Below are positions 28,170 to 42,499 of a DNA stretch of 42,843 bases, piece by piece. This DNA comes from Nitrospiraceae bacterium (lineage in GTDB: Bacteria > Nitrospirota > Thermodesulfovibrionia > UBA6902). The stretch lies in assembly GCA_003599425.1 (NCBI GenBank), contig QZKC01000001.1:1-42843 (forward strand), in the 5' to 3' direction. The position numbers and the translations under genes were made by a program. The notes beneath the pieces are model-generated. The model did no database searches, was not told the DNA's origin, and saw only the letters and a program-made list of their open reading frames with translations. Each line of letters starts with the position of its first letter. Position 1 is the first letter of the stretch.

Positions 28170-30836
28170 TCATCTCAGTTTCACATGGTCCCTGACAAAG
28201 TCTTCGATGAACATATCAGTGACAGCATCGTTATACATGACCATGTCGAGCTGTTTTGTGTAAGCCGTAAGTTTGCCCATTATCGTTAACCTTTCTTCAA
28301 TGGCGGACAGGTTGAACTTGGTAAGCATAGCGTTGATCACGTCGCCTGTGACCTTAACCCTGAAATCAAGTTTTTTGATGATCTCGGTTATCAGCCTGAC
28401 CCTTCTCAATCTCCTCTCTGTGGCCGCTCCCCCTCCCTTGAAGAAAAATTTTATGTAGTTGTCATTCAGGTTGTCTCCGGCGTAAGCCTCAACCAGCGAG
28501 AAGTGATACCCAAGCCTTATGCTGAAATTCATATAGTTTTGCGATATGATCGCATAGCTCCTGCCGCCCATTTTAAGGAGTTCTTCTTCCTGCGTAGCCG
28601 CGGTATTTGCGATCATGCCGAAAAAACCTTTGGCGTCCACAGGCCTCGGTTCAGGCCATCTCATATTCATCATCCCTTTCAGGAAAGCTGAAAAGGGCAC
28701 GGAGGTTATGTCTTCCGGCGCAGCCTTTTTCAGGTCATGCTTTCTGATGCCGCCGTCAATATTCAGGAGGCGGGCGTCCATCGGAATGCCGGCTTTTAAA
28801 ATAACTGTTTGTTCTCCAAGCCTCTTTGCGTTGCCTGTCTCAGCAAAGGCGACAAGGGACAGAAGATCTTCAAGGCTTTCGATATGCTCTCCCTCCCTGG
28901 TTCTGAATATCTCGGCCATCGCCATTTCATGTGTGAATCTTGTTATGTCATGAAATGTCTCGCAAAGTTCGGGTTTGAAGTTTTCCCTGTCAGGGTCGAT
29001 CAGATTCAGAGGGACAATTATCTTCAGTACCTTTTCCAGTGTTTGCAGCAGATGAGTGTCCCTGAAAGTTGAACGAGGGATGTTTAAGGTCAGATTGACG
29101 AGCTCTTCGACCCTACCTTCATAGATGTTGCAGTTAAAAGCATCAACCGTCAGTTCCTGCCCGTCTCTGATAATGCGTGTAGCGTTCTCTGTATCAAGGA
29201 TAGTCGGCACCTGGTATTCCCTCGAAAGCGACGCCATGTGCCCTGTGGCGCTGCCCACATCGGTGATGATCGCGGAAGCCTTGTTCATCACGGTCACGAA
29301 TTTCGGTGAAGTATGCCTTGCCACGAGCACCGCGCCTTCAGGGAAATGCTCAAGGTCATCGTGCTCTTTCAGTATAAATGCCTTTCCGCAGCCTATGCCC
29401 TTGCATGCGATGACACCTTTGTCGATCAGTATATTGTATTTTTCGATCCTCCTTGGAACAGTCAGTGTTGAGCTTTCAACTTTCAGCATTCTTAACGGCC
29501 TGCTCTGCAATATACAGATCTGATCGTCGTGGCCTATGGCCCATTCAATGTCCTGCGGACTGCCGTAATGCTTTTCCAGCGCCGCTGCATATCTAAAGAG
29601 CACGCTTATCTGCTCATCCGTCAGGGACGGCCTGTTCCTGAGCTCATCAGGGACCCTGACATCTTTAACGTCTCCTTCGGGGGTGCAAATGTCCATATTC
29701 TGCTGTTCGGGAATTTGTCTCTCCGCAATAACTCCGGTGTCCCGCGCCAGAGAATAGAAGTTCGGCATTTCCGTTCCATCAACAACTGAAGTTCCAAGTC
29801 CCCATACGGCATTGATGAGCATGAGCCCGCTTTCAGGATTGTTGGGGTCTTTTGTATATATGACACCTCCTGACTTTGCGTCAATCATCTTCAGAACACC
29901 GACAGACATCACCATGTCCTCTTCCGAGAATCCATTTGTCTTATAGTAAAAAATTGCGCGTGGGGTAAAGAGGCTTGCAACCACATCCTTGTATTTTTGA
30001 AGGATCAAATTTTCCGGCACATTGAGAAACGTGGAATACTGGCCCGCGAAACTGAATTCCCCGTCCTCACGAATAGCGCTGCTCCGGACAGAGACCTTTA
30101 AAGTTGAATGTTGAATGTTGAATGTTGAATAGTTGGATTCCCTCACTTTAGCGTTCAACCCTTCAACCTTCAACCTTTCAACCGCCATGTTAATAGCTTT
30201 CTGCAAATCCTCCGGCACCTCAGCCCCGGCCACTATGAGTTGTATCTCCCTGCTTATCTCATTAAGCGCTTCCATGTTTTCTATGTTCGCTTCCGAGAGA
30301 TAACTGTTCATCCTGTCGGACAGCCTGTTGTGTTCTACAAATCTTTTGAAGGCATACGCACTGATAGAGAAACCGTCAGGAGCTGGAAGGCTGAGACGGT
30401 TTTTGATCTCTCCCAGATGTGCCATCTTGCCGCCGCTGATACTGATCATTTCCATGTTAAGGTTTTCGATGGGAATGACCAGTTCGCTGACCGGTATCAA
30501 CCGTTTGTGTGATAAAGTCTTTTGAACTTTATCGTTAATGTCTTCATGTCGCTTATATAATATCTGATACTTTTTTTCTGAAAGCTCGTTTATGTATTCA
30601 ATAATCTTAAAGACACCGTCATCGATCGCTTTCACGGTTGCATTGATATATTGTCTGTCAAAGAGATATTCACCGGAAAGTTTTTCCTCCATGTCCGCCA
30701 TAAGTTCCAGGACATTATTGTTTTCCCTGAGCAGGTTCTGGAAGGTAACGTATTTCCGCTTCAGCGCTTCCTGAAGGCTGCCCTCCTGAACTTCATCTCT
30801 CTTCAACTTTCTGAACGCCTTGAAGAAATTTCTCAT
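28170..30836 (-). CDS. PEP-synthase-like PEP/pyruvate-binding protein with phosphohistidine domain and non-canonical C-terminus
   Basis: ATP-grasp region (GGKMAHLGEIKN, VSVRSSAIREDGEFSFAGQYSTFLNV, DIEWAIGHDDQICILQSRPL), swivelling domain (IITDVGSATGHMASLSREYQVPTI). Confidence 0.88.
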   Translation of the reverse strand: MRNFFKAFRKLKRDEVQEGSLQEALKRKYVTFQNLLRENNNVLELMADMEEKLSGEYLFDRQYINATVKAIDDGVFKIIEYINELSEKKYQILYKRHEDINDKVQKTLSHKRLIPVSELVIPIENLNMEMISISGGKMAHLGEIKNRLSLPAPDGFSISAYAFKRFVEHNRLSDRMNSYLSEANIENMEALNEISREIQLIVAGAEVPEDLQKAINMAVERLKVEGLNAKVRESNYSTFNIQHSTLKVSVRSSAIREDGEFSFAGQYSTFLNVPENLILQKYKDVVASLFTPRAIFYYKTNGFSEEDMVMSVGVLKMIDAKSGGVIYTKDPNNPESGLMLINAVWGLGTSVVDGTEMPNFYSLARDTGVIAERQIPEQQNMDICTPEGDVKDVRVPDELRNRPSLTDEQISVLFRYAAALEKHYGSPQDIEWAIGHDDQICILQSRPLRMLKVESSTLTVPRRIEKYNILIDKGVIACKGIGCGKAFILKEHDDLEHFPEGAVLVARHTSPKFVTVMNKASAIITDVGSATGHMASLSREYQVPTILDTENATRIIRDGQELTVDAFNCNIYEGRVEELVNLTLNIPRSTFRDTHLLQTLEKVLKIIVPLNLIDPDRENFKPELCETFHDITRFTHEMAMAEIFRTREGEHIESLEDLLSLVAFAETGNAKRLGEQTVILKAGIPMDARLLNIDGGIRKHDLKKAAPEDITSVPFSAFLKGMMNMRWPEPRPVDAKGFFGMIANTAATQEEELLKMGGRSYAIISQNYMNFSIRLGYHFSLVEAYAGDNLNDNYIKFFFKGGGAATERRLRRVRLITEIIKKLDFRVKVTGDVINAMLTKFNLSAIEERLTIMGKLTAYTKQLDMVMYNDAVTDMFIEDFVRDHVKLR
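30103..30182. repeat. GTTGAA heptad inverted repeat, copy A (inside the PEP-synthase-like CDS)
   Basis: GTTGAAT x4 (30103-30130), then an inverted arm GTTCAACCCTTCAACCTTCAACCTTTCAACC ending at 30182/30183. Confidence 0.85.
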
Positions 30837-30990: not shown

Positions 30991-31019
30991 TTGACAAGAA
31001 ATTCCAAAGAGTATAACAT
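30991..31019 (+). promoter_or_regulatory. Candidate sigma-70 promoter of the GntR-family gene
   Basis: TTGACA (30991-30996), 17-nt spacer, TAACAT (31014-31019). Confidence 0.55.
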
Positions 31020-31053
31020 TATAATCAATTAATTAATAACATTATAATGTTAT
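31013..31053. promoter_or_regulatory. Candidate GntR operator: 18-bp perfect palindrome plus upstream partial copy
   Basis: ATAACATTATAATGTTAT (31036-31053) is a perfect palindrome; ATAACATTATAAT recurs at 31013-31025, 23 bp upstream and overlapping the -10. Confidence 0.6.
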
Positions 31054-31064
31054 GATAAATTAAA

Positions 31065-31802
31065 ATGGAAAGACCCTTAGATAGAGAAAAATCGCAAAAG
31101 CTATATGTGCAACTCTTTGAATTATTGAGAGGAAAAATAGAGACAGGCGAATGGGCTGTCAGCACTCAAATTCCGACTGAGGAAGAGCTTTGCAAGATAT
31201 ATGATGTAAGCAAAGCCACAGTACGGCTCGCAATATTGGAACTTGTGCGGCAGGGCTATTTAACGAGGCAGCAGGGGAAAGGTACTTTCGTATGCAAAAG
31301 GATAATACCGGAGGGCTTGACTATGTCAACAAGTTTTAAGGAGTTGATGCTTGAAGCAGGCATTGTATTTTCCACCCAAACACTCGCCCAGACCGTGATG
31401 ATGCCTACTGATGACATTGATGTTAAGCTCAACGTTCCTGAAGACAAGCACATCATTTATATAAAGCGTTTGCGCGCGGTTGAAAATGAACCGGTTCTCC
31501 TTCAGGAAGCATATATCCCCTACAACATATGCCCTCAGTTATTAGCAGATGACATTGCCAGCAACTCTCTGTTTGAACTTTTTGAAAAGAAATATGGAAT
31601 AAAAATTACTAAGATAACCGACTTTATTGAACTTGCCTATATCAATAAAGATGAAGGCAAGCTTCTCGATATGAAGGAAGGCTCTCCCGCGTTGCTCCTT
31701 GAGCAGCATTTTTACGCGGGTGAAACTCAAGTGATCTATATGCGAACAATAAAGAGACCTGAGAGGTTCAGGTTTTATATAGAGCTGGAAAGGAAAGGTT
31801 AA
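31065..31802 (+). CDS. GntR-family transcriptional regulator with UTRA domain
   Basis: LYVQLFELLRGKIETGEWAVSTQIPTEEELCKIYDVSKATVRLAILELVRQGYLTRQQGKGTFV, then a UTRA-type effector domain. Confidence 0.95.
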   Translation: MERPLDREKSQKLYVQLFELLRGKIETGEWAVSTQIPTEEELCKIYDVSKATVRLAILELVRQGYLTRQQGKGTFVCKRIIPEGLTMSTSFKELMLEAGIVFSTQTLAQTVMMPTDDIDVKLNVPEDKHIIYIKRLRAVENEPVLLQEAYIPYNICPQLLADDIASNSLFELFEKKYGIKITKITDFIELAYINKDEGKLLDMKEGSPALLLEQHFYAGETQVIYMRTIKRPERFRFYIELERKG

Positions 31803-31805
31803 AAA

Positions 31806-31874
31806 GTTGAAGGTTGAATAGTTGAATGGTTAAAGAATAAATTTTTCAACTTTTCAACTGTTCAACCTTTCAAC
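31806..31874. repeat. GTTGAA heptad inverted repeat, copy B
   Basis: GTTGAAGGTTGAATAGTTGAATGG ... TTTTTCAACTTTTCAACTGTTCAACCTTTCAAC; begins 3 nt after the GntR stop codon. Confidence 0.85.
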
Positions 31875-31893
31875 AGATTAAAAAGGAGGTTTT

Positions 31894-32421
31894 ATGTCAA
31901 ACGGAAAGACCGTAAAGGAGTTGATGCTTGACGTCTTTGAATTCCCCCACATACCTTATTGGTTCTCAATAAGGCAGGCCATCGGGATTATCAAGAAATC
32001 CCTGCTCACCAAGGAAAAATGTCTTCAACCTATGGCTGTGCTGGTCTTTGATGAAAAGTACAATCTTGTCGGCACGGTGAGTTTTAAAAATATTCTCAGA
32101 GGCCTGGAGCCAAGATTTTTAAAGCCCACATCAAAGGCCCAGGGCCACGTGGAAGACGATTCGGGATTGTCTTTGCTCTGGGATACGCTTTTCAACAAAG
32201 AGTCAAGGGAAATGGCGGAGAAGCCCATCAGTGAGGTGATGACCCCTGCAAAACATTTTGTCGCGCCCGATGACCCGGTAACCAAGGCCGCTTATCTTAT
32301 GGTGCACAATGACCTGGCCTTATTGCCTGTTCTTGAAAACAACAAGAAGTTCGTCGGACTTGTAAGAATGATAGAAGTCTTCGATGAGTTGTCAAATAAT
32401 ATTCTGGAAGGGAGGGGGTAA
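31894..32421 (+). CDS. CBS-domain protein
   Basis: Paired segments LQPMAVLVFDEKYNLVGTVSFKNIL and ISEVMTPAKHFVAPDDPVTKAAYLMVHNDLALLPVLENNKKFVGLVRMIEVFD. Confidence 0.88.
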   Translation: MSNGKTVKELMLDVFEFPHIPYWFSIRQAIGIIKKSLLTKEKCLQPMAVLVFDEKYNLVGTVSFKNILRGLEPRFLKPTSKAQGHVEDDSGLSLLWDTLFNKESREMAEKPISEVMTPAKHFVAPDDPVTKAAYLMVHNDLALLPVLENNKKFVGLVRMIEVFDELSNNILEGRG

Positions 32422-32426
32422 TTATC

Positions 32427-33947
32427 ATGGCAGAGAAAGATATAAAAACAGCTCAGGGGTTGCCTGAAGCGCCGGTCGAGATAGTTGTAGCGAAAGCTCC
32501 GAAAGCCCCTTTTGACTGGAAGCGTGTTTTTTTTATTTTGCTTGGATTAGGACTTTTCCTTTTTGTTTATTTCATGCCGCAGTGGAATGACGCCATCGAC
32601 CCTACAGGCAAGGCATTTCCACTTTCGCAGGAAGGTAAAGGCGCAATAGCGCTTTTTTTATTAGCAGGTATATGGTGGGTATTTGAGGTTATACCTATTG
32701 GCGCAACGGCCCTTGCTATCGGCGTGTTTCAGGCATTATTTGGCATCCGCTCTGCAAAAGATGCATTTAAAGACTTTATGGATCCCTCTGTTATGTTCAT
32801 CTTCGGCTCTGTTGTTGTCGGATTGGCTTTTACAAAAGCAGGGCTCACAAAACGCATCGCATACAAAATGCTTGAACTTGTCGGTGAAAATACAGGCAAG
32901 ATACTTCTTGGCGCCCTGCTTGTTACAGCATCATTAACTCTTGTAATGGCTCATACCGCGGCTGCGGCAACTGTTTATCCTATTTTGCTTGCTGTCCTTG
33001 CTCTTTATGGAGAAGGCGACAAGCAGACCAAATTCGGCAAGGCTTTGTTTATAGGTATGGCTTATGCAGCAGGTGCAGGAAGCATTATCACATTCCTCGG
33101 CGCTGCACGCGGGCCAGCCGCAGCAGGTATGTTCAAAGAATTCACCGGCAGAGATATCGGATTCTTTGAACTTACAAAATATATGTTTCTTGTTGGCGGG
33201 ATAATGGTCTTAATTATATGGGGTTATTTAATGGTATTTCTAAAGCCTGAAAAAAAGACAATCCCCGGGCTTAAGGATAAAGTGAAAAGGCTTTCCAGAG
33301 AACTGGGTCCAATGACAAGAGATGAAAAATTTGTCATCTTTTGCGTAGTGTGTGTTGTTATCATAATGTCTTTGCAGTCTTTTGTTCCGGTACTTAAACC
33401 GCTCGACAGGGCCGCCATAATGCTGGTCTCAACACTCCTGTTCTTCATATTCAAAGTGCTTACTGTTAAAGAACTTGAGGAAATACCCTGGAACATCATC
33501 CTGCTCTTCAGCGGCGCCATGAGTATAGGATTCTGTCTCTGGAAGACCGGAGCCGCACAGTGGATGGCAGTCAACTGGCTTGTGATGTTCCAGAACGCTC
33601 ACTGGCTTGTTTTTGTAGTCAGCATAGCAGCATTTGTCTTGATAATGACAAACTTCATTATGAACGTTGCTGCTATAGCTATTTCACTTCCAGTTTCCCT
33701 TGTTGTTGCCCAATATCTTGGCGTTGCCCCTGATGTGATTTTTTATGCTTCACTGGTTACGGCAGGCATGCCGTTTGTGCTTTTGATAGGCGCTGCTCCT
33801 AATGCCATAGCATATGGCTCAGGCCAGTTTACGACTGGTGAATTTTTTAAACATGGAATTCCAATGAGCATTATATTGATAGTTGTCTTGGGATTAGCGA
33901 TTGTTACAATCTGGCCGTTGTTTGGAATGCCGGTTTTGATGAAATAA
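32427..33947 (+). CDS. SLC13/DASS-family sodium-coupled anion permease
   Basis: IWWVFEVIPIGATALAIG, DPSVMFIFGSVVVGLAFTKAGLTKRIAYKML, NIILLFSGAMSIGFCLWKTGAAQWMA, typical DASS topology. Confidence 0.88.
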   Translation: MAEKDIKTAQGLPEAPVEIVVAKAPKAPFDWKRVFFILLGLGLFLFVYFMPQWNDAIDPTGKAFPLSQEGKGAIALFLLAGIWWVFEVIPIGATALAIGVFQALFGIRSAKDAFKDFMDPSVMFIFGSVVVGLAFTKAGLTKRIAYKMLELVGENTGKILLGALLVTASLTLVMAHTAAAATVYPILLAVLALYGEGDKQTKFGKALFIGMAYAAGAGSIITFLGAARGPAAAGMFKEFTGRDIGFFELTKYMFLVGGIMVLIIWGYLMVFLKPEKKTIPGLKDKVKRLSRELGPMTRDEKFVIFCVVCVVIIMSLQSFVPVLKPLDRAAIMLVSTLLFFIFKVLTVKELEEIPWNIILLFSGAMSIGFCLWKTGAAQWMAVNWLVMFQNAHWLVFVVSIAAFVLIMTNFIMNVAAIAISLPVSLVVAQYLGVAPDVIFYASLVTAGMPFVLLIGAAPNAIAYGSGQFTTGEFFKHGIPMSIILIVVLGLAIVTIWPLFGMPVLMK

Positions 33948-33955
33948 AATAAATA

Positions 33956-34055
33956 GTTGAACAGTTGAATAGTTGAAGGTTGAAGGTTGAAGGTTGAAGG
34001 TTGATCGTTGATGGGTTTTAAAACCTTTCAACTTTTCAACCTTCAACCTTTCAAC
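33956..34055. repeat. GTTGAA heptad inverted repeat, copy C
   Basis: GTTGAACAGTTGAATAGTTGAAGGTTGAAGGTTGAAGGTTGAAGGTTGATCG ... CCTTTCAACTTTTCAACCTTCAACCTTTCAAC. Confidence 0.88.
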
Positions 34056-34072
34056 AAAAATCAGAGGATATT

Positions 34073-34789
34073 ATGAGTTCCGAAAATATACTGAAAAAAT
34101 ACTTCGACAAGACATACACCGAGATCGAGTTCATCAAGAAGACGTATGAGGCTCTTAGACAACTGGGCTTCAACAATGACAACACGATCGCGGGCAAATG
34201 TATCTGCAGGGACGAGATATCACAGTCCATAAGAAGCGTGATAAAGCACGTCTGGGGAGAAGCCTTCAATTTCTCCAGCCTTGCAGGCATGTTCTTCGCA
34301 GGCAAAACCGGATTGGCAGCGGCAATGCATCATTCACCGATCGCTGACGGTAGAGAGCGGTATGTGTTTTACGCAATGCCTCATATCGCGATAAATGAAG
34401 AAGGCAGGATAGGGATCTGCAAGCGGGAAGGCAGGGCAGGTGAATCCATAGCCTGCGGGGCCCTCTATGCCTTTCAGAAAGAGATGGCAAGCGGCAGGGT
34501 AAATCTTACAATGGATAACGAAGACGTTGAGCAGAGCCTTATCAGGATGCGGCTTTTGAGAGAGATCCCGTATGGCCATGTCCCGGACCTTCTTGAGCTT
34601 ACGAAAACAACGCTGAAGGCTATTCAGGCAGATCTTGAGACCGCGATCAGTAAAGTTGTTGATACAGGCAAAAGCAACTACGCGGTGATAACAGGCATAC
34701 AGATAAACGGGCCTGACAGCAACTATGTATGGCCTGCGGCGTGTTATGCAGTTGTGGATGGAAAACAAATACAGTTGAAGGTTGAATAG
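34073..34789 (+). CDS. LCIB/LCIC-family (beta-CA-like) carbonic anhydrase homologue
   Basis: CICRDE, WGEAFNFSSLAGMFFAGKTGLAAAMHHSP, ERYVFYAMPHIAI and ESIACGALYAFQKE, from recalled similarity to the LCIB family including candidate Cys-His-Cys zinc ligands. Confidence 0.78.
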   Translation: MSSENILKKYFDKTYTEIEFIKKTYEALRQLGFNNDNTIAGKCICRDEISQSIRSVIKHVWGEAFNFSSLAGMFFAGKTGLAAAMHHSPIADGRERYVFYAMPHIAINEEGRIGICKREGRAGESIACGALYAFQKEMASGRVNLTMDNEDVEQSLIRMRLLREIPYGHVPDLLELTKTTLKAIQADLETAISKVVDTGKSNYAVITGIQINGPDSNYVWPAACYAVVDGKQIQLKVE

Positions 34790-34810
34790 TTGAAAAGTTG
34801 AAAGGTTAAA
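34774..34810. repeat. GTTGAA heptad repeat, copy D (single arm)
   Basis: GTTGAAGGTTGAATAGTTGAAAAGTTGAAAGGTTAAA; it encodes the last residues (QLKVE-stop) of the upstream CDS; no facing inverted arm. Confidence 0.8.
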
Positions 34811-34835
34811 CAAAAAAATCAGAGGGGACGAATTT

Positions 34836-35225
34836 ATGAGTAAGACTGTTAAGAGTTTTGAGGAGTTGAATACCTGGAAGAATGCAAGAGAACTTGTAGG
34901 GTTAATATATGCTTTCACCAAAAAAGACAGATTCTCAAAAGATTTTTCGCTTTGTGATCAAATGAAAAGGTCATCTGTTTCTATTATGACTAATATTGCG
35001 GAAGGTTTTGAGCGTGGCTCAAATAAAGAGTTTATACAGTTTCTTTATATAGCAAAAGGGTCATGCAGCGAAGTCAGATCACTACTATATGTTGCTTGTG
35101 ATCAGAACTATATAACAGTGGACGACTTTTCTAAAACAAAAAACGAATGCCTGAAACTCTCAGGAATGATAAACAACTTTATAAAATATCTTGTGCCAAT
35201 GAATTCAAAGAGACAGAAACTTTAG
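34836..35225 (+). CDS. Four-helix-bundle protein (23S rRNA IVP/S23 family)
   Basis: FEELNTWKNARELVGLIYAFTKKDRFSKDFSLCDQMKRSSVSIMTNIAEGFERGSNKEFIQFLYIAKGSCSEVRSLLYVA is diagnostic. Confidence 0.95.
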   Translation: MSKTVKSFEELNTWKNARELVGLIYAFTKKDRFSKDFSLCDQMKRSSVSIMTNIAEGFERGSNKEFIQFLYIAKGSCSEVRSLLYVACDQNYITVDDFSKTKNECLKLSGMINNFIKYLVPMNSKRQKL

Positions 35226-35232
35226 AAACAAA

Positions 35233-35290
35233 TTTGAATGTTGAATGGTTGAATGGTTTTTCCAACTTTTCAACCTTTCAACTATTCAAC
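35233..35290. repeat. GTTGAA heptad inverted repeat, copy E
   Basis: TTTGAATGTTGAATGGTTGAATGG ... TCCAACTTTTCAACCTTTCAACTATTCAAC. Confidence 0.85.
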
Positions 35291-35352
35291 AAATTTAATA
35301 GAGGATTTATGGAATCAACAATAATGATATGTAATCAAGGAGGACTAATCTC

Positions 35353-36633
35353 ATGATGACCATGGTAGCTGTAGTTTTTGTGCTCGCATATTCAATGATC
35401 GCGCTCGAGCACCCTATTAAAATAAACAAGTCCGCCACGGCGCTGATCGCCGCAGGTTTGATGTGGACCTTTTATTCCTTTGCAAGTCCCGTCGGGGTTG
35501 AAGGCGTAATCCACCAGCTTACTGAAAAACTGGCCGAGACCGCAGCCATCGTCTTCTTCCTAATCTGCGCCATGACCATTGTCGAGGTGACCGACGCACA
35601 CGGAGGCTTTGAGGTTATCACCGAGCGCATCAAGGCGACAAAGTTGACGAGCCTGCTCTGGATTATCGGCTTTATCACCTTTTATCTCTCGTCGATTCTC
35701 GACAATATGACCACCACAATCGTAATGGTCGCCCTGATGAAGCGCCTGCTCAAGGAGCATAAACAACGCCTCTTCTTTGCGGGCATTATTGTAATCGCCG
35801 CGAATGCAGGCGGTGCCTGGTCGCCTATCGGCGATGTGACGACCACTATGCTCTGGATCGGCGGACAGGTCACAACAGTCAATATTATGAAGACAACCTG
35901 GATTGCTTCTATGGTCAATCTGCTGGTCCCACTTGTTATAGCCTCCTTCATCCTTAAGGGACCTGTTGTGCCCCCGGACAAGCTCGAAAACGGCGCCACG
36001 ACCACCTCCCAGTTCGAAAAGAACCTGATGTTCTTCATGGGTATGGGCTCGCTAATCTTCGTACCGATATTCAAGGCAGTTACGCATCTGCCCCCATACC
36101 TCGGTATTTTGCTGGCACTCGGCGTGCTCTGGTTTGTAGGCAATATCCTGCATCGCAACAAACCTGATGAAGAGAAGGACCACCTCAGGCTGGCCAAGGC
36201 CCTCAAGCGCATTGATATGGCTTCGGTCGTATTCTTCATAGGCATACTGTTAGCCGTGGCTACCCTTTCCGCCAACGGCATGCTCCCCGCATTAGCCCAG
36301 TGGCTCGATGCAAAACTCGGCAGCCAGACCCTGATAGTTATTATCATCGGTATGGTTTCCGCAATTGTGGACAACATTCCCCTTGTGGCCGCTTCCATGG
36401 GCATGTACCCGCTGGCCCAGTTCCCGCCGGACTCCTTTCTCTGGGAATTTATGGCGTACTGCGCCGGCACCGGCGGCTCTATGCTGATCATCGGCTCGGC
36501 TGCGGGCGTTGCTGCAATGGGATTGGAGAAGATCGAGTTCTTCTGGTACGCGCGCCGCATAGGGCCTCTCGCCCTTGCCGGGTATTTCGCCGGCGTGGCG
36601 GCCTATATCATTCAATACAGGTTGCTGCATTAA
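35353..36633 (+). CDS. nhaD: NhaD-type sodium:proton antiporter
   Basis: TAAIVFFLICAMTIVEVTDAHGGFEVI, LSSILDNMTTTIVMVALM, ANAGGAWSPIGDVTTTMLWIGG, SAIVDNIPLVAASMGMYP. Confidence 0.93.
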   Translation: MMTMVAVVFVLAYSMIALEHPIKINKSATALIAAGLMWTFYSFASPVGVEGVIHQLTEKLAETAAIVFFLICAMTIVEVTDAHGGFEVITERIKATKLTSLLWIIGFITFYLSSILDNMTTTIVMVALMKRLLKEHKQRLFFAGIIVIAANAGGAWSPIGDVTTTMLWIGGQVTTVNIMKTTWIASMVNLLVPLVIASFILKGPVVPPDKLENGATTTSQFEKNLMFFMGMGSLIFVPIFKAVTHLPPYLGILLALGVLWFVGNILHRNKPDEEKDHLRLAKALKRIDMASVVFFIGILLAVATLSANGMLPALAQWLDAKLGSQTLIVIIIGMVSAIVDNIPLVAASMGMYPLAQFPPDSFLWEFMAYCAGTGGSMLIIGSAAGVAAMGLEKIEFFWYARRIGPLALAGYFAGVAAYIIQYRLLH

Positions 36634-36767: not shown

Positions 36768-38498
36768 ATGAACCTGAAAATCTGGCATAAGATGATCATA
36801 GGGATATCGATCCCTTCCCTTGTTGTCATCATAGGCGGTCTCCTGACCCTTTACTATCTCAATAACGTAAAGACCAGGCATGGCTTTGTCGAGATCGCCG
36901 ACGATCTGAGGGAACGTGTCCTTGAGATCCGGCGAAATGAAAAGAATTTTCTCCTGCATAAGACCACTGAATATTACAAGTACTTCAAAAGTTCGATATC
37001 CATCCTCCAAAGATCTGCAAGCAATATACCTGAGGCAATAATCGACCAGGTCGGGAAGAGCGAGTTCTTACTACTGAGAAATTCGATCCAGAACTACCAG
37101 GACCTGCTGAACAACCTGCTGGAAAACTATCTCCATGAAGAACGCCAGGTTGAAAAAGTGAGAGAGGAAGGCAGGCATCTGGAATCCTTTGTTGCAAAGA
37201 AAAACCATGCAGTTGAGCTCTCAACGGATTTTGTTCTGAACCTGAGGCGGTTTGAAAAAAACTATATGCTCTTCCGCGACAAAGCGTCATTTGATGAGTT
37301 GAACAAAGGGCTGGCCCAGTTTGACAATATCATCCCGTTCTGCATCGAATGCATCAGATATGCCAACGCCATAAATGAACTCCTTAACGTTCACACAGAC
37401 CAGACCAGACTTGAAGGCAGCCTGCAGATCATCGGCAACAAACTGGAAGAAATAACGAACACAATTTCAATCAGGGAAAGAGAAAATGTCAGGTCGTTTT
37501 TTTCCGTAACACAGCACCGTCTTTTGATAGTTCTTGTACTTCTCTGCGTGATGGGCCCACTCTTTGTATATAAAACAGCGACACATATTGTTAAGCCGAT
37601 AAAGCGGCTTGCTGAGATCACCAAGAGAATCTCCGAGGGCGACCTGTCCCTGAGGGCTCCCCTGAAAGAGCATGATGAGACCTTTCAGCTTTCCCAGTCC
37701 TTTAACACCATGCTCGACAAGCTCCAGTTCACCCAGCAGTCTCTTGAGAGGAGCCTCGAACTTCTGCATGAAAAACATGTCGAGGCCGAGAAACGCGCCT
37801 CGCTGGGCTTCCTCGTCTCAGGGGTGGCCCATGAACTGAACAATCCCCTGAACAATATATCCCTCACTGCGGAAACAATGAAAGAAGACCTGGATACAAT
37901 GACCCGCGAAGAGCAGAAAGAATATATTCAGGACATCCTGACGCAGAGCGAACGTGCCAAGCATATCATTGAAGAACTGCTCGATTTTGTTGGAACGCGG
38001 AAATCAACTGCAATGGAGAAGCTGGATATTATCAACGTCCTCGGGGAATCTATACATCTTGTTTCAAACCAGCTAAAAGTTACCAATATTAAATTGAAAC
38101 TCGATGTGCCCCAATACCCTTTCTTCATAAAAGGCAACCAGAGCAAGATCGAGGAGATCTTCGTAAACATCATGGTAAATGCCATTCATGCCATGAAGGA
38201 TTCGGGTACGCTTACCATCTGCGCAAGGCCCGGTTCAGGACAGAGAAATATCTTTATTGATATTTCCGATACCGGATGCGGGATAGAAGAAAAAGAGATA
38301 AGAAATATTTTTGAACCTTTTTACACGACAAAGCCGGTCGGAGAAGGTACAGGGCTTGGACTTTCAGTTGCTTACAGCCTCGTATCAAAGCATAACGGAG
38401 ATATCAGCGTTAAAAGCAAGGTGGGTAAAGGCACGACATTCAGCATACGATTCCCGGCTTATGATGAAAGTTCCGTGCCGGAAATATCCAATACATGA
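36768..38498 (+). CDS. Membrane sensor histidine kinase (HAMP, HisKA, HATPase)
   Basis: N-terminal TM, HAMP ISEGDLSLRAPLKEHDE, GVAHELNNPLNNISLTAE, DTGCGIEEKEIRNIFEPFYTTKPVGEGTGLGLSVAYSLV. Confidence 0.94.
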   Translation: MNLKIWHKMIIGISIPSLVVIIGGLLTLYYLNNVKTRHGFVEIADDLRERVLEIRRNEKNFLLHKTTEYYKYFKSSISILQRSASNIPEAIIDQVGKSEFLLLRNSIQNYQDLLNNLLENYLHEERQVEKVREEGRHLESFVAKKNHAVELSTDFVLNLRRFEKNYMLFRDKASFDELNKGLAQFDNIIPFCIECIRYANAINELLNVHTDQTRLEGSLQIIGNKLEEITNTISIRERENVRSFFSVTQHRLLIVLVLLCVMGPLFVYKTATHIVKPIKRLAEITKRISEGDLSLRAPLKEHDETFQLSQSFNTMLDKLQFTQQSLERSLELLHEKHVEAEKRASLGFLVSGVAHELNNPLNNISLTAETMKEDLDTMTREEQKEYIQDILTQSERAKHIIEELLDFVGTRKSTAMEKLDIINVLGESIHLVSNQLKVTNIKLKLDVPQYPFFIKGNQSKIEEIFVNIMVNAIHAMKDSGTLTICARPGSGQRNIFIDISDTGCGIEEKEIRNIFEPFYTTKPVGEGTGLGLSVAYSLVSKHNGDISVKSKVGKGTTFSIRFPAYDESSVPEISNT

Positions 38499-38881
38499 AC
38501 CACTCATCCAGGCATAGCATAATGGTCGTTGATGATGAACCGATAGTCGGGAAAAGGCTTAAACGGCTTCTTGAAAGAGAGGGATATGCTGTTGAGACCT
38601 TTACCAGAGGCTCTCAGGCCCTTGAAGGCCTGGGGAGAAATCGTTACGACGTTATCATTACAGATATCATGATGGGCAATGTTGACGGTATGATGATCCT
38701 GGAATACGTTAAGAGCAATTATCCGGATATACCGGTAATTATAATTACCGGGTATGGGAAAAAGGAAATCGCAGAAGAAGCATACAGGAAGGGTGTCCAC
38801 TCGTTTATCATAAAACCATTCAGAATTGACGAGTTAAAGGCAGTTGTCAAAGAAGCGCTCTCGGGTGCGGACAAGGACTGA
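38495..38881 (+). CDS. Response regulator receiver protein
   Basis: IMVVDDEPIVGKRL, DVIITDIMMGNVDG, IITGYG, IIKPFRIDEL; ATGA overlap with the upstream kinase. Confidence 0.94.
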   Translation: MNHSSRHSIMVVDDEPIVGKRLKRLLEREGYAVETFTRGSQALEGLGRNRYDVIITDIMMGNVDGMMILEYVKSNYPDIPVIIITGYGKKEIAEEAYRKGVHSFIIKPFRIDELKAVVKEALSGADKD

Positions 38882-38979: not shown

Positions 38980-39819
38980 TTATTTTTTCTTTCGTCTGTC
39001 CAGGTTGGAATTCAGAAGCCTGGTACAGGAACCCAAATCTGCAGATCGTATATTATCCAGCACAAAATCCTTTTCTTTAATGCTCCTGATTGCATCTTCA
39101 ACACCTGCCTGGGCTGCGAAAAGGCAAGGGGTACTGTAAAGAACGATTGATGCACCATTTTCTGCCAGGGTCGCTAAGTCATACCAGGGCGATTTGCCAC
39201 CGGCCAATTGATTATAGACGACCGGCTTATTAACTTTATCCCTTAACCGTTTAATCATCCCTACGTTATTTACAGCATCTACTAACACCGCATCAGCGCC
39301 TGCGTCAGAGAAGGCCCTGGCCCTTTCCAGAGCTTCTTTCTCGTCATGAACATCCGTGCGTGCTATCACGACGAGATCACGTCTTGCATAGAGAACTTTA
39401 TTCAACTTCACGAGGAACTGTTCCAATTCCAGAATCTCCTTGCCATCGTAGTGGCCGCAGCGGCGAGGTCTTTTCTGATCCTCAATAACTATACCTGATG
39501 CCCCAATGGCTTCCAGCAATGACACTACATGGCATGCTACTTCGCTATCCGCATATCCATCATCGATATCCACCAAAAGGTGGTGATTTGGCAGTACAGT
39601 TCTTATTCTCTGAACAAACGCTGTCATATCCGACCAGGCAATAAATCCAATGTCAGGAAGCCCGTAATAGCTGGCTGCAAAACTAAAGCCACTAATAAAA
39701 AGAGCATTGTAGTACTTGGCAGCAACAGTTGCTGAAAACACATCGTAAACCCCAATTATAGGGGTAACTGTTTCCTTATTTATTTCGTTCCGAAAAAGTT
39801 CTCCGTAGCTTTGAATCAT
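38980..39819 (-). CDS. Isocitrate lyase/PEP mutase superfamily protein (probable C-C lyase)
   Basis: GVYDVFSA, DIDDGYAD, IEDQKRPRRCGHYDGKEI (Cys-containing loop), VIARTD. Confidence 0.88.
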   Translation of the reverse strand: MIQSYGELFRNEINKETVTPIIGVYDVFSATVAAKYYNALFISGFSFAASYYGLPDIGFIAWSDMTAFVQRIRTVLPNHHLLVDIDDGYADSEVACHVVSLLEAIGASGIVIEDQKRPRRCGHYDGKEILELEQFLVKLNKVLYARRDLVVIARTDVHDEKEALERARAFSDAGADAVLVDAVNNVGMIKRLRDKVNKPVVYNQLAGGKSPWYDLATLAENGASIVLYSTPCLFAAQAGVEDAIRSIKEKDFVLDNIRSADLGSCTRLLNSNLDRRKKK

Positions 39820-39823
39820 TTAA

Positions 39824-42499
39824 TCATACCTCCTTGTTAAGTGATTTCTCCGGATTATTCTTTTGTTCCAGTTTATTATGTATATTGGCAAGATATGTGT
39901 TAAGTAATTGGCTCCAGATGTCAAGGTAATATTCCCGGTCCAGGTCTGAGTGATAAGCTCCCTGTATCACATGCTTAATAACTCCGCCTGCCGCAAGGTT
40001 GCTCCAGTCAGCATCAGCAGCATGATTGCCTATTTCTGCCTGTACGATTATGATTTCTTTTGGATATTTTTTCTGAATAAAATCACGGGAAGCCCGGCGA
40101 TATACACTCCCCATATAACCTGATCTGAGTGACGGAGGCAAAGGCCGGCTGGATAATAAGAAGTAGGCTTCATAGAGTAACGGGGAAAATACCGATTTTA
40201 CAAGTGGTCTTATTCCTCCCCTCTCTGATATGTAGGAAACTTTTTTGGAAAAAGGAAGCTTGGCGAGATTTTTTAGATGCCGGCGAATCCAATGTTTCTG
40301 TGTTGTAAACACTCTCCTGCCGGAGTTTGCACGTGCACTTGAAAGCAATGGCTCAATCAAAAACAATAAAGCGACATCTTCACCCTGCTCAAGCAATTGA
40401 TGAGCGATTTCAAAAGCGTATCTTGCTCCCCAGCAGTAACCGCCCAGAAAATAGGGCCCTGAGGGCTGAATAGTGAGTATCTCCTGAACATAATGGGAGG
40501 TTATTTCCTTTGTAGTCTTAAAACGTGCCCGCATTCCGTCAATGCCCTGCATTGTCAAGGCATACAAAGGCTGATCCTTTCCCAGATAGCCTGGCAATAA
40601 TGAACTTAGCTGCACTGATTGGAGCCAGAAAAGAGGATGTTTTGTGCCTCTGGTTTGAATCGGGAAAAGTGTGTAGAAGTCAGGCGATGAAGTTTTTTCT
40701 GCTGCCGAGCTTTGTCTATGATCAATTTCTTCTGCCAGCTCAGTCAGCACAGGATATTGAAATATAGTGAGAACCGGCGTTTCAAATCCAAACTCATCAG
40801 TGAGCAGAGTTATCACTTGCATAGCAAGAAGGGAGTCTCCACCCAAAATGAAAAAATTATCGTGCTTTCCTATTTTCTCGAGTCCCAGCAGTTTTCGCCA
40901 GATTTTTGCGATTACATGTTCTGTTTCTGTTTCAGGGGAAGCGAACTTGGGATGCAAAAGGTCAGACAGTTTTTCAGCTAATCCTATCCTCTGCACTTTT
41001 CCAGTTGGACCTTTCGGAATGCTGTCGACAAAGAGGACCTGCTGGGGTACCTTATAAGGAGCTAAACGATCTGCAACATATTGACGAAGCTCTCTTTCGG
41101 TAACGGCTTTCTCTTTGTCTATTACAGTGACAACTGCTACCGTTTCACCAAGGCGGTTGTGAGGTACACTGAATGCTACGGCCTGCAGCACAGAGGGATG
41201 TTCCAATAGCACGTCGTCTATTTCCCGAGGAGAGATCTTTTGTCCCCCACGATTAATTATTTCTTTTAAGCGGCCTGAAATATAGAGATAACCTTCTTCG
41301 TCGAGATACCCCAGGTCTCCGGTCCTGAACCATCCACGGGAAAATGCCTTATCGTTGGCATCCGGGTTATTTTCATAGCCCTTCATCACATTTTCTCCCC
41401 GTATCACAATTTCTCCTGTGTCACCGTTCGGCAGTATATAGTCCTTGTCATCCATAATAGCAACGTCAGGGCCTGCGGGCAGGCCTACTGATCCTGGTTT
41501 GCGCACGAGTGGAGGCATAGGATTGGTTGCCATCTGGTGAGCTGCTTCTGTCATGCCATAGGCTTCAATGACCGGGACGTTGAAAGTGGCTTCAAGTTTT
41601 TTCATGATTATTGGAGGTAATGAAGAGGATGAAGATCGGATAAAACGGAATGCAGCTTTATTGGCCCGTGATGTGTGCTTTTCCGCTAATTCAAGAACGA
41701 GCTGATGAATAGTAGGAACAGATGTATACCATGTAGGGTGAAATCTTTCTATCCAGTCAAAGAAACTCTTATCAGAGAACCCTGAGGTGCATATAACACT
41801 TCCTTTTACACTTAATGAGGAGAGAAGGGCAGCGATCAACCCGTGAATATGAAACAATGGCATGACATTCAGGCAACGATCAGAAGCATTAAGTTGTAAT
41901 GACGTGCTTACATTGAAAGCTGAAGCAAAAATATTCCTCTGCGCCAAGGGGACTATTTTGGGTCGTGAAGTAGTCCCGGAAGTATGCAGAATGAGCGCAG
42001 TATCATCAGGGCCTGAAAAACCTTTATTTGCAGAAGCAGATATTCCCCCGTTGAATTCAAGATTAAAAAGTCCTGCTTCAGCCTCCTTAAGGGGAATCAG
42101 CTCTATAATGGGGATGTTGCATGATCTGGCTACTGAACGTACTGGAGAATCCATTTCAGCTTGAACTATCACTGCCCTTGCATTAATATCCGAAAGGTAG
42201 AAGTCGAATTCTTTTTCTTTATATGCAGGATTTAAAGGAGCAATGATCGCACCTGCGATAACGGACAAAAAAGCAACAGCCATTTCGGGGCCATTGGGGA
42301 GGACCACAGCTATGCGATCATTTCTGCCTAACCCGTAGTCATTCAGCAAACAAATCACATGATCAACATGCTGGTACATCTGTCCATACGAAAGTGTTTT
42401 CCGGTCCGGAGCTAAAATAGCAGGTAATGCGGGGCCCTTTTTTACTGATTCCAGAAAATCTCCGGCAGAATGAAATTTATGCTTAGAAGAATCATTCAT
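39824..42499 (-). CDS. Adenylation (acyl-CoA-synthetase-like)-carrier-thioesterase protein
   Basis: A domain LHTSGTTSRPKIVPL, YGMTEAAH, GWFRTGDLGYLDEEGYLYISGRLKEIINRGGQKISP; carrier FFILGGDSLLAMQVI; thioesterase YFLGGYCWGARYAFEIA; terminal His region GAYHSDLD. Confidence 0.92.
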   Translation of the reverse strand: MNDSSKHKFHSAGDFLESVKKGPALPAILAPDRKTLSYGQMYQHVDHVICLLNDYGLGRNDRIAVVLPNGPEMAVAFLSVIAGAIIAPLNPAYKEKEFDFYLSDINARAVIVQAEMDSPVRSVARSCNIPIIELIPLKEAEAGLFNLEFNGGISASANKGFSGPDDTALILHTSGTTSRPKIVPLAQRNIFASAFNVSTSLQLNASDRCLNVMPLFHIHGLIAALLSSLSVKGSVICTSGFSDKSFFDWIERFHPTWYTSVPTIHQLVLELAEKHTSRANKAAFRFIRSSSSSLPPIIMKKLEATFNVPVIEAYGMTEAAHQMATNPMPPLVRKPGSVGLPAGPDVAIMDDKDYILPNGDTGEIVIRGENVMKGYENNPDANDKAFSRGWFRTGDLGYLDEEGYLYISGRLKEIINRGGQKISPREIDDVLLEHPSVLQAVAFSVPHNRLGETVAVVTVIDKEKAVTERELRQYVADRLAPYKVPQQVLFVDSIPKGPTGKVQRIGLAEKLSDLLHPKFASPETETEHVIAKIWRKLLGLEKIGKHDNFFILGGDSLLAMQVITLLTDEFGFETPVLTIFQYPVLTELAEEIDHRQSSAAEKTSSPDFYTLFPIQTRGTKHPLFWLQSVQLSSLLPGYLGKDQPLYALTMQGIDGMRARFKTTKEITSHYVQEILTIQPSGPYFLGGYCWGARYAFEIAHQLLEQGEDVALLFLIEPLLSSARANSGRRVFTTQKHWIRRHLKNLAKLPFSKKVSYISERGGIRPLVKSVFSPLLYEAYFLLSSRPLPPSLRSGYMGSVYRRASRDFIQKKYPKEIIIVQAEIGNHAADADWSNLAAGGVIKHVIQGAYHSDLDREYYLDIWSQLLNTYLANIHNKLEQKNNPEKSLNKEV

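Follow-up and report, generated by a model that had tools for sequence, protein, structure and literature searches.

In cyanobacteria, NdhR represses sbtA, bicA and the mnh (Mrp) operon together, and SbtB, which binds adenyl nucleotides, regulates SbtA (PMC10096703). More broadly, a 2024 review of the inorganic-carbon toolkit covers SbtA, SulP/BicA, Cmp, Chr and DAC-type systems (PMC10880623); a text search of this review found neither DASS nor LCIB. Here, we describe a bacterial gene cluster in which a DASS/SLC13 permease and an LCIB-family homologue of beta-type carbonic anhydrase are encoded next to each other and followed by a Na+/H+ antiporter. The cluster is located on a contig of 42,843 nucleotides (QZKC01000001.1, the whole of which is hereafter called the window) from an uncultured Nitrospiraceae bacterium (GCA_003599425.1). 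The host genome assembly comprises 2.9 Mb in 106 contigs, of which the window is contig 16 of the set, and is about 90% complete. By a tree of the DASS gene, the nearest named relatives of the host are Thermodesulfovibrionales of the phylum Nitrospirota.

An earlier note on this DNA, made from the sequence alone, read the cluster as GntR, CBS, DASS/SLC13 permease, LCIB, a four-helix-bundle open reading frame (ORF) and NhaD, all on the forward strand. Both the ORFs and the family searches confirm this order (Table 1), with gaps of 91, 5, 125, 46 and 127 nucleotides between the six ORFs from GntR through NhaD. The span given to the cluster, 31065-36633, holds for the forward genes but is too narrow at its ends: a divergent PPDK-type gene upstream and genes for a histidine kinase and a response regulator downstream are conserved with the cluster and belong to it as well. 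The reading that we favour, with slightly more confidence than doubt, is that the module would import HCO3- driven by Na+ and interconvert CO2 and HCO3-, and would thereby supply inorganic carbon, including to the Wood-Ljungdahl pathway.

The carbonic anhydrase homologue is a clear member of the LCIB family with intact active-site residues. It matches PF18599 in Pfam with 198.4 bits (cut-off 25; E-value 1.3e-58) and the crystal sequence of CrLCIB (5k5w) with an E-value of 6.8e-43 in phmmer, which bears out the resemblance to LCIB/LCIC pointed out in the earlier note. Structure prediction, proposed there as a check of the zinc site, agrees with this assignment. More specifically, the AlphaFold2 (AF2) model obtained from 28 homologues (pLDDT 94.1) adopts the LCIB fold, and a Foldseek search of the PDB returned 5k5w as the best match (E-value 5.3e-21), followed by PtLCIB4, LCIC and then classical beta-carbonic anhydrases. 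All 28 homologues share C45, R46, D47, H87, H104, R118 and C128, which also align with CrLCIB. Among these residues, C45, H104 and C128 are the predicted Cys-His-Cys metal ligands, while R46-D47 is predicted to form the dyad.

The permease matches TIGR00785 with 213.2 bits (cut-off 198.6) and PF00939 with an E-value of 1.5e-51, and NaDC3, VcINDY and NaCT are among its best relatives of solved structure. None of the permeases in the window has a match to the SbtA or SulP/BicA family in Pfam, the only matches being to PF00939, PF03600 and PF07854. In VcINDY, the residues of the SNT and TPPN motifs touch the carboxylate substrate and help to build the Na+ sites. Aligned to VcINDY, the window permease carries AHT in place of SNT1, IMN-V in place of SNT2 and AAPN in place of TPPN, and it lacks the two SNT motifs that serve as the criterion for dicarboxylate/citrate DASS. 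Judged by these motifs, the window permease is a DASS relative, yet no standard dicarboxylate DASS.

These replacements are not peculiar to the window. All LCIB-linked DASS copies inspected contain AHT and IMN-V, and all but one contain GAAPN. We also surveyed named genomes and aligned the best 80 of 464 confirmed DASS relatives, to which all counts out of 80 refer; in these relatives, mostly from named genomes, IMN-V is invariant and GAAPN is found in 79. The invariance of AHT in the 80 relatives is partly the result of selection because this motif belonged to the scan pattern of the survey, in which IMN-V and GAAPN had no part. Three more distant class members with SNT (L194, L195 and L200; L numbers denote loci) have neither LCIB nor an antiporter adjoining.

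We assessed how far the linkage is conserved by searching 396 genomes of the phylum with PF18599 and comparing the surrounding regions. In the window's class, LCIB comes after DASS in 25 of 26 loci, one with a four-helix-bundle ORF between, and these loci span nine family codes; usually CBS and GntR stand in front of DASS, with the divergent PPDK-type gene beyond. Four added class loci are without DASS, three of them with an Mrp subunit-D paralogue before LCIB (L187-L189) and one without such a partner, so that the fair figure for the linkage is 25 of 30 full-length LCIB genes. In L187, GntR, CBS and Mrp are retained. Among the named genomes surveyed, Nitrospirota, Actinomycetota and Thermodesulfobacteriota, the last with Thermodesulfobacterium hveragerdense (L096), have LCIB-linked DASS, and the DASS tree requires 5 to 7 changes of the LCIB-linked label. 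Near DASS, CBS proteins occur in 65/80 loci, NhaD/CitMHS-type antiporters in 26, LCIB in 22, GntR in 14, SulP in 13 and Mrp in 7. The conserved linkage of CBS, SLC13, LCIB and antiporter that the earlier note had proposed to look for is therefore present, in three phyla. Two outcomes that the note would have taken as refuting its reading, a protein that does not match LCIB and a linkage that relatives do not share, were thus looked for and not obtained.

Downstream of LCIB, a cation/H+ antiporter-type gene is found in 22 of the 25 class loci with downstream sequence, at gaps down to 9 nucleotides. This slot is filled by NhaD (8 loci), CBS plus a CitMHS-type protein (6), a longer, 578-amino-acid CitMHS-type protein (5) or Mrp (3); the CitMHS-type label is an assignment to family only, the nearest curated model being MamN, below cut-off. 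In the window, the NhaD ORF scores 165 bits against NF038006 (cut-off 80) and 387 bits (9.8e-116) against TIGR00775, below the cut-off of 577, and a PDB sequence search with it gave no match. NhaD proteins extrude Na+ in exchange for H+. Because several types of cation/H+ antiporter occupy the same slot, the link to sodium or other cations suggested in the earlier note is supported, and we regard this swapping of antiporter families as the best indication that the work of the module includes cation/proton exchange.

LCIB exchanges its other partners as well. In other classes of the phylum, a bestrophin gene overlaps an LCIB homologue by 4 nucleotides (L032:7552-9368, forward strand), LCIB follows an Na_Ca_ex exchanger in L047, L048 and L052, and it lies close to SulP in L055, L060 and L064. 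The bestrophin family includes algal bicarbonate carriers. Likewise, the SulP family includes the bicarbonate carrier BicA (PMC10096703). Such swapping with families that contain known bicarbonate carriers counts in favour of the bicarbonate reading. The overlap in L032 recalls the algal bestrophin/LCIB pair. A further arrangement is seen in L198:4587-8435 (forward strand), where SulP, cytidylate-kinase-like and divergent LCIB-like genes are consecutive and the gene of a CitMHS-type antiporter comes a few genes later.

Two other protein families adjoin DASS. A family of 383-389 amino acids with the motifs CPDE, SHTGY/GHTGY and CCGKL is found at four loci (L110:2474-3631, L116:3547-4695, L128:5056-6201 and L143:3863-5029). 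Its hhalign score against LCIB is 31.6, compared to a maximum of 27.3 in 100 shuffles and 30.2 for an unrelated hexapeptide family; an AF2 model from the 4 sequences has a pLDDT of 30, and the intermediate sequences L071 and L198 strengthen the link. The evidence is suggestive, and the family may represent carbonic anhydrases of LCIB type that have diverged very far. A 473-amino-acid hexapeptide-repeat protein lies close behind DASS in about 10 loci, mostly of Thermodesulfobacteriota (e.g. L132:10085-11503). It has a weak match to CcmM and belongs to the family of 3c8v, a 'putative acetyltransferase'; the His pattern of gamma-carbonic anhydrases is not kept, and the protein was not used as evidence.

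In the mechanism that we propose, the altered DASS permease would bring HCO3- into the cell together with Na+, and a cytoplasmic LCIB would equilibrate HCO3- with CO2 at the site described above. CO2 would then pass to the CODH/ACS and formate dehydrogenase steps of the Wood-Ljungdahl pathway and HCO3- to carboxylases, while NhaD would move Na+ out for H+ in and also restore the proton balance. GntR would set expression, with the CBS protein and the histidine kinase/response regulator pair tuning the module. The host genome encodes CODH/ACS and AprA; no RuBisCO, Pfam-type beta-carbonic anhydrase or SulP was found in it at about 90% completeness. Because no RuBisCO was found, the algal sense of 'CO2-concentrating', which the earlier note had evoked, does not apply. 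Many key autotrophic enzymes use CO2, while HCO3- predominates at circumneutral pH (PMC10880623), and the import of HCO3- combined with a cytoplasmic carbonic anhydrase would be sensible where the cytoplasm consumes CO2 directly. On the best reading, the module would serve Wood-Ljungdahl CO2 fixation and/or pH balance. With rather less confidence, somewhat short of an even judgement, we extend this to a new bacterial inorganic-carbon class: an AHT/IMN/GAAPN DASS acting as Na+:HCO3- symporter, LCIB and an interchangeable Na+/H+ antiporter would feed the Wood-Ljungdahl pathway without RuBisCO, and the related DASS of sulfur bacteria in several phyla would do the same job with other partners.

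Several observations weigh against bicarbonate supply. Sulfate reducers and sulfur oxidisers commonly carry a DASS of this subfamily but no LCIB; most loci of the subfamily in Thermodesulfobacteriota and Betaproteobacteria are without LCIB, so that HCO3- as substrate cannot be read from the LCIB linkage for the whole subfamily. In Marietou 2018, the members of one DASS group of high conservation, Ci, are regarded as putative transporters of sulfate (PMC5840216). In a comparison of key residues, the equivalents of G258 and A260 agree between the window permease and group Ci, and the subfamily probably corresponds to this group. Purified CrLCIB was reported to be inactive, with two active-site residues disordered, a His (His162/161) and an Arg (Arg194/193), to which the inactivity was ascribed (PMC5876011); H87 and R118 of the window protein may be their equivalents. 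A cytoplasmic carbonic anhydrase next to HCO3- import also carries a risk of CO2 leak, described for carboxysome users (PMC10880623). Finally, AprA and CODH/ACS are both present in several close relatives that have neither a DASS of this kind nor LCIB; since they have both pathways, the module is accessory and not required for either. Correlation with AprA or CODH/ACS was uninformative, both being near universal in the sample, and LCIB and beta-carbonic anhydrase showed no clean pattern of complementarity. In the papers accessible to us, we found no measured transport in support of either HCO3- or sulfate as the substrate of the subfamily. The frequency of DASS without LCIB, the likely overlap with group Ci and the chemistry shared with a role in pH and Na+ balance are the reasons why we hold bicarbonate supply with only slight preponderance.

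This shared chemistry is the substance of one alternative, which we consider unlikely, in which the same transport would keep cytoplasmic pH and Na+ in balance where the water is alkaline or sulfidic, instead of supplying carbon. The two could not be told apart by sequence, and the constancy of the antiporter fits such homeostasis well: it is kept in DASS loci without LCIB (L192, L193 and L197), L187 without DASS keeps Mrp, and the module is missing from many relatives with CODH/ACS. Homeostasis leaves unexplained, however, why the partner found most constantly upstream of LCIB is a dedicated anion permease and why LCIB is linked to two families with known carriers of inorganic carbon, SulP and bestrophin. 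A similarly low probability is given to DASS being a transporter of sulfate or another divalent anion for sulfate respiration, with the antiporter restoring Na+ and LCIB buffering protons or CO2. Sulfate would suit a subfamily whose carriers are chiefly sulfate reducers and sulfur oxidisers, and a host that has AprA and in which no SulP was found, and the G258 and A260 equivalents point the same way. The case for group Ci rests on expression, that of its member HRM2_40290 being high at 15 mM sulfate, and on two neighbourhoods in Firmicutes where its genes lie near sat/apr (PMC5840216). Yet the identity of the subfamily with group Ci is only likely, AprA, QmoA (Qmo) or Sat genes lie near DASS in 1/80 loci, and many AprA-bearing relatives are without this DASS; except for SulP, no sulfate-pathway family recurs beside DASS, whereas carbonic anhydrase, antiporters and CBS do.

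Ordinary SLC13 uptake of C4-dicarboxylate or citrate, with LCIB supplying CO2/HCO3- for carboxylation or clearing CO2 from decarboxylation, agrees with family membership and with the solved relatives named above. The earlier note had kept dicarboxylate import as an option; because the carboxylate-binding SNT motifs are replaced, and the TPPN contact with them, by residues kept in relatives, this option is weakened. As no dicarboxylate enzymes were seen recurring in the 80 DASS neighbourhoods either, we judge it very improbable. Least probable of all is a chance or inherited neighbourhood without joint function. Such a view could draw on the hairpin-filled gaps and the inserted ORF of the window copy, but the synteny survey largely refutes it, given a linkage that extends over nine class family codes and three named phyla, antiporter types exchanged in place, and gaps of 9-10 nucleotides either side of LCIB in the compact loci L053, L054, L058 and L070.

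The remaining genes and features of the cluster are listed in Table 1. The CBS protein contains one clear CBS domain, its N-terminal half being without significant match, and is a probable regulatory partner of the permease. The adenylate sensing put forward in the earlier note, for which tandem CBS domains would be expected, is a conceivable role for this protein with its one recognised domain. The palindrome ATAACATTATAATGTTAT, of which a further partial copy is found at 31013, is a candidate GntR operator in the window; a conserved operator was rejected since the palindrome is absent upstream of GntR in relatives. A histidine kinase also follows NhaD in L037, L038 and L041-L044. In L071:7967-9172 (forward strand), a divergent LCIB-like domain (PF18599, 58 bits) is fused to a receiver domain (PF00072), which among the three response regulators of the window is closest by BLAST to that of the cluster (45% identity, 1.7e-33); this fusion ties the kinase/regulator pair to the module. 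Further genomes of family code f12 contain LCIB-like matches resembling that of L071.

Table 1. Genes and sequence features of the cluster in the window.
Feature	Position	Strand	Evidence and remarks
PPDK ATP-binding + swivelling-His (phosphoenolpyruvate (PEP)-utiliser mobile) protein, 888 aa	28170..30836	-	PF01326 1.1e-85, PF00391 1.1e-20
GTTGAA-repeat stretch	30154-30183		inside PPDK-type gene
18-bp perfect palindrome ATAACATTATAATGTTAT, candidate GntR operator	31036..31053	.	sequence; 5' of GntR
GntR-UTRA transcriptional regulator	31065..31802	+	PF00392/PF07702, Pfam/NCBIfam; first cluster gene, conserved in class
CBS-domain protein	31894..32421	+	PF00571; 5 nt 5' of permease gene
DASS/SLC13 permease, AHT/IMN subfamily	32427..33947	+	TIGR00785 above cut-off, PF00939
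LCIB-family beta-type carbonic anhydrase homologue	34073..34789	+	PF18599 (LCIB_C_CA)
Four-helix-bundle / 23S-rRNA-IVP-type ORF	34836..35225	+	PF05635 4.4e-36
NhaD-family Na+/H+ antiporter	35353..36633	+	NF038006 above cut-off, TIGR00775 below
Sensor histidine kinase (HAMP, HisKA, HATPase)	36768..38498	+	Pfam
Response regulator, 4-nt overlap with kinase gene	38495..38881	+	ORF list
GTTGAA-repeat stretches, several strong hairpins	31812-31875, 33955-34056, 34780-34810, 35239-35291		cluster gaps

In most loci of the class, GntR has the divergent PPDK-type gene upstream, and in 17/80 loci this gene lies no more than 6 kb from DASS. Its product has no match to the PEP/pyruvate barrel domain in Pfam and may be a phosphotransferase. 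The gene is conserved with DASS even where LCIB is missing. The four-helix-bundle ORF and the repeats do interrupt the cluster, as had been noted earlier: GTTGAA has 17 matches in the window compared to 0.08 expected, and hairpins of these repeats occupy the gaps before CBS, LCIB and NhaD with folding z-scores of -5 to -7. Between LCIB and NhaD, the ORF is found elsewhere only in a same-genus relative (L038) and is probably an insertion outside the core of the cluster. Further along the window, at 38980-42499 on the reverse strand, a methylisocitrate-lyase/PEP-mutase-like gene adjoins that of a protein whose N-terminal region is of the acyl-CoA ligase (AMP-forming) type and whose C-terminal part appears to be carrier- and thioesterase-like.

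Should bicarbonate prove to be the substrate, the 'sulfate/dicarboxylate' annotation common in sulfur-cycle bacteria would be wrong for a whole subfamily. The algal LCIB protein, whose function is under continuing debate, would then have simple bacterial relatives in which a partner in transport is evident, and there would be a concrete, testable mechanism for how Wood-Ljungdahl organisms obtain their carbon in water poor in CO2.

Compared to known systems, the window protein shares with the LCIB/LCIC family (PF18599; CrLCIB 5k5w, PtLCIB4 5b5y) the fold, the predicted metal ligands, the CRDE/PHIA/ACGAL motifs and similarity over the full length. Unlike algal LCIB/LCIC, it is a bacterial single-domain protein of 238 amino acids whose gene stands together with those of a DASS permease and a Na+/H+ antiporter, in a host in which no RuBisCO was found. 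With the DASS/SLC13 symporters (VcINDY, NaDC3, NaCT, NaS1), the permease shares a TIGR00785 score over cut-off, alignment across most of its length and the Thr and Asn at positions 408 and 413; it differs from the VcINDY type in the AHT/IMN-V/AAPN replacements, the CBS gene 5 nucleotides upstream and the linkage to a carbonic anhydrase. Group Ci has in common with it sulfur-cycle hosts, high conservation and the G258/A260 equivalents, but the context here is carbonic anhydrase, antiporter and CBS, rarely sat-apr, and the substrate is putative in both. The DAB/DAC/MpsAB systems likewise couple a beta-carbonic-anhydrase-type protein to an antiporter-type membrane protein, an arrangement approached where LCIB adjoins the Mrp subunit-D paralogue in L187-L189. 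The window cluster differs from them in that its permease is a DASS and no DabA was found among the annotated genes; the cluster genes scanned gave no Pfam match to DabA (DUF2309) with a DabB-type subunit. The proposed mode of action resembles that of cyanobacterial SbtA/SbtB and BicA with Mnh/Mrp and NhaS3, in which a bicarbonate carrier, a Na+/H+ antiporter and a small regulator of nucleotide-binding type come under joint regulation. In contrast to cyanobacterial uptake, the permease and regulator belong to other families, the carbonic anhydrase is encoded in the cluster, and the host has CODH/ACS instead of carboxysomes. Because DASS does not appear in the toolkit review, the DASS-LCIB cluster would, if the substrate is right, be a new variant of Na+-bicarbonate uptake.

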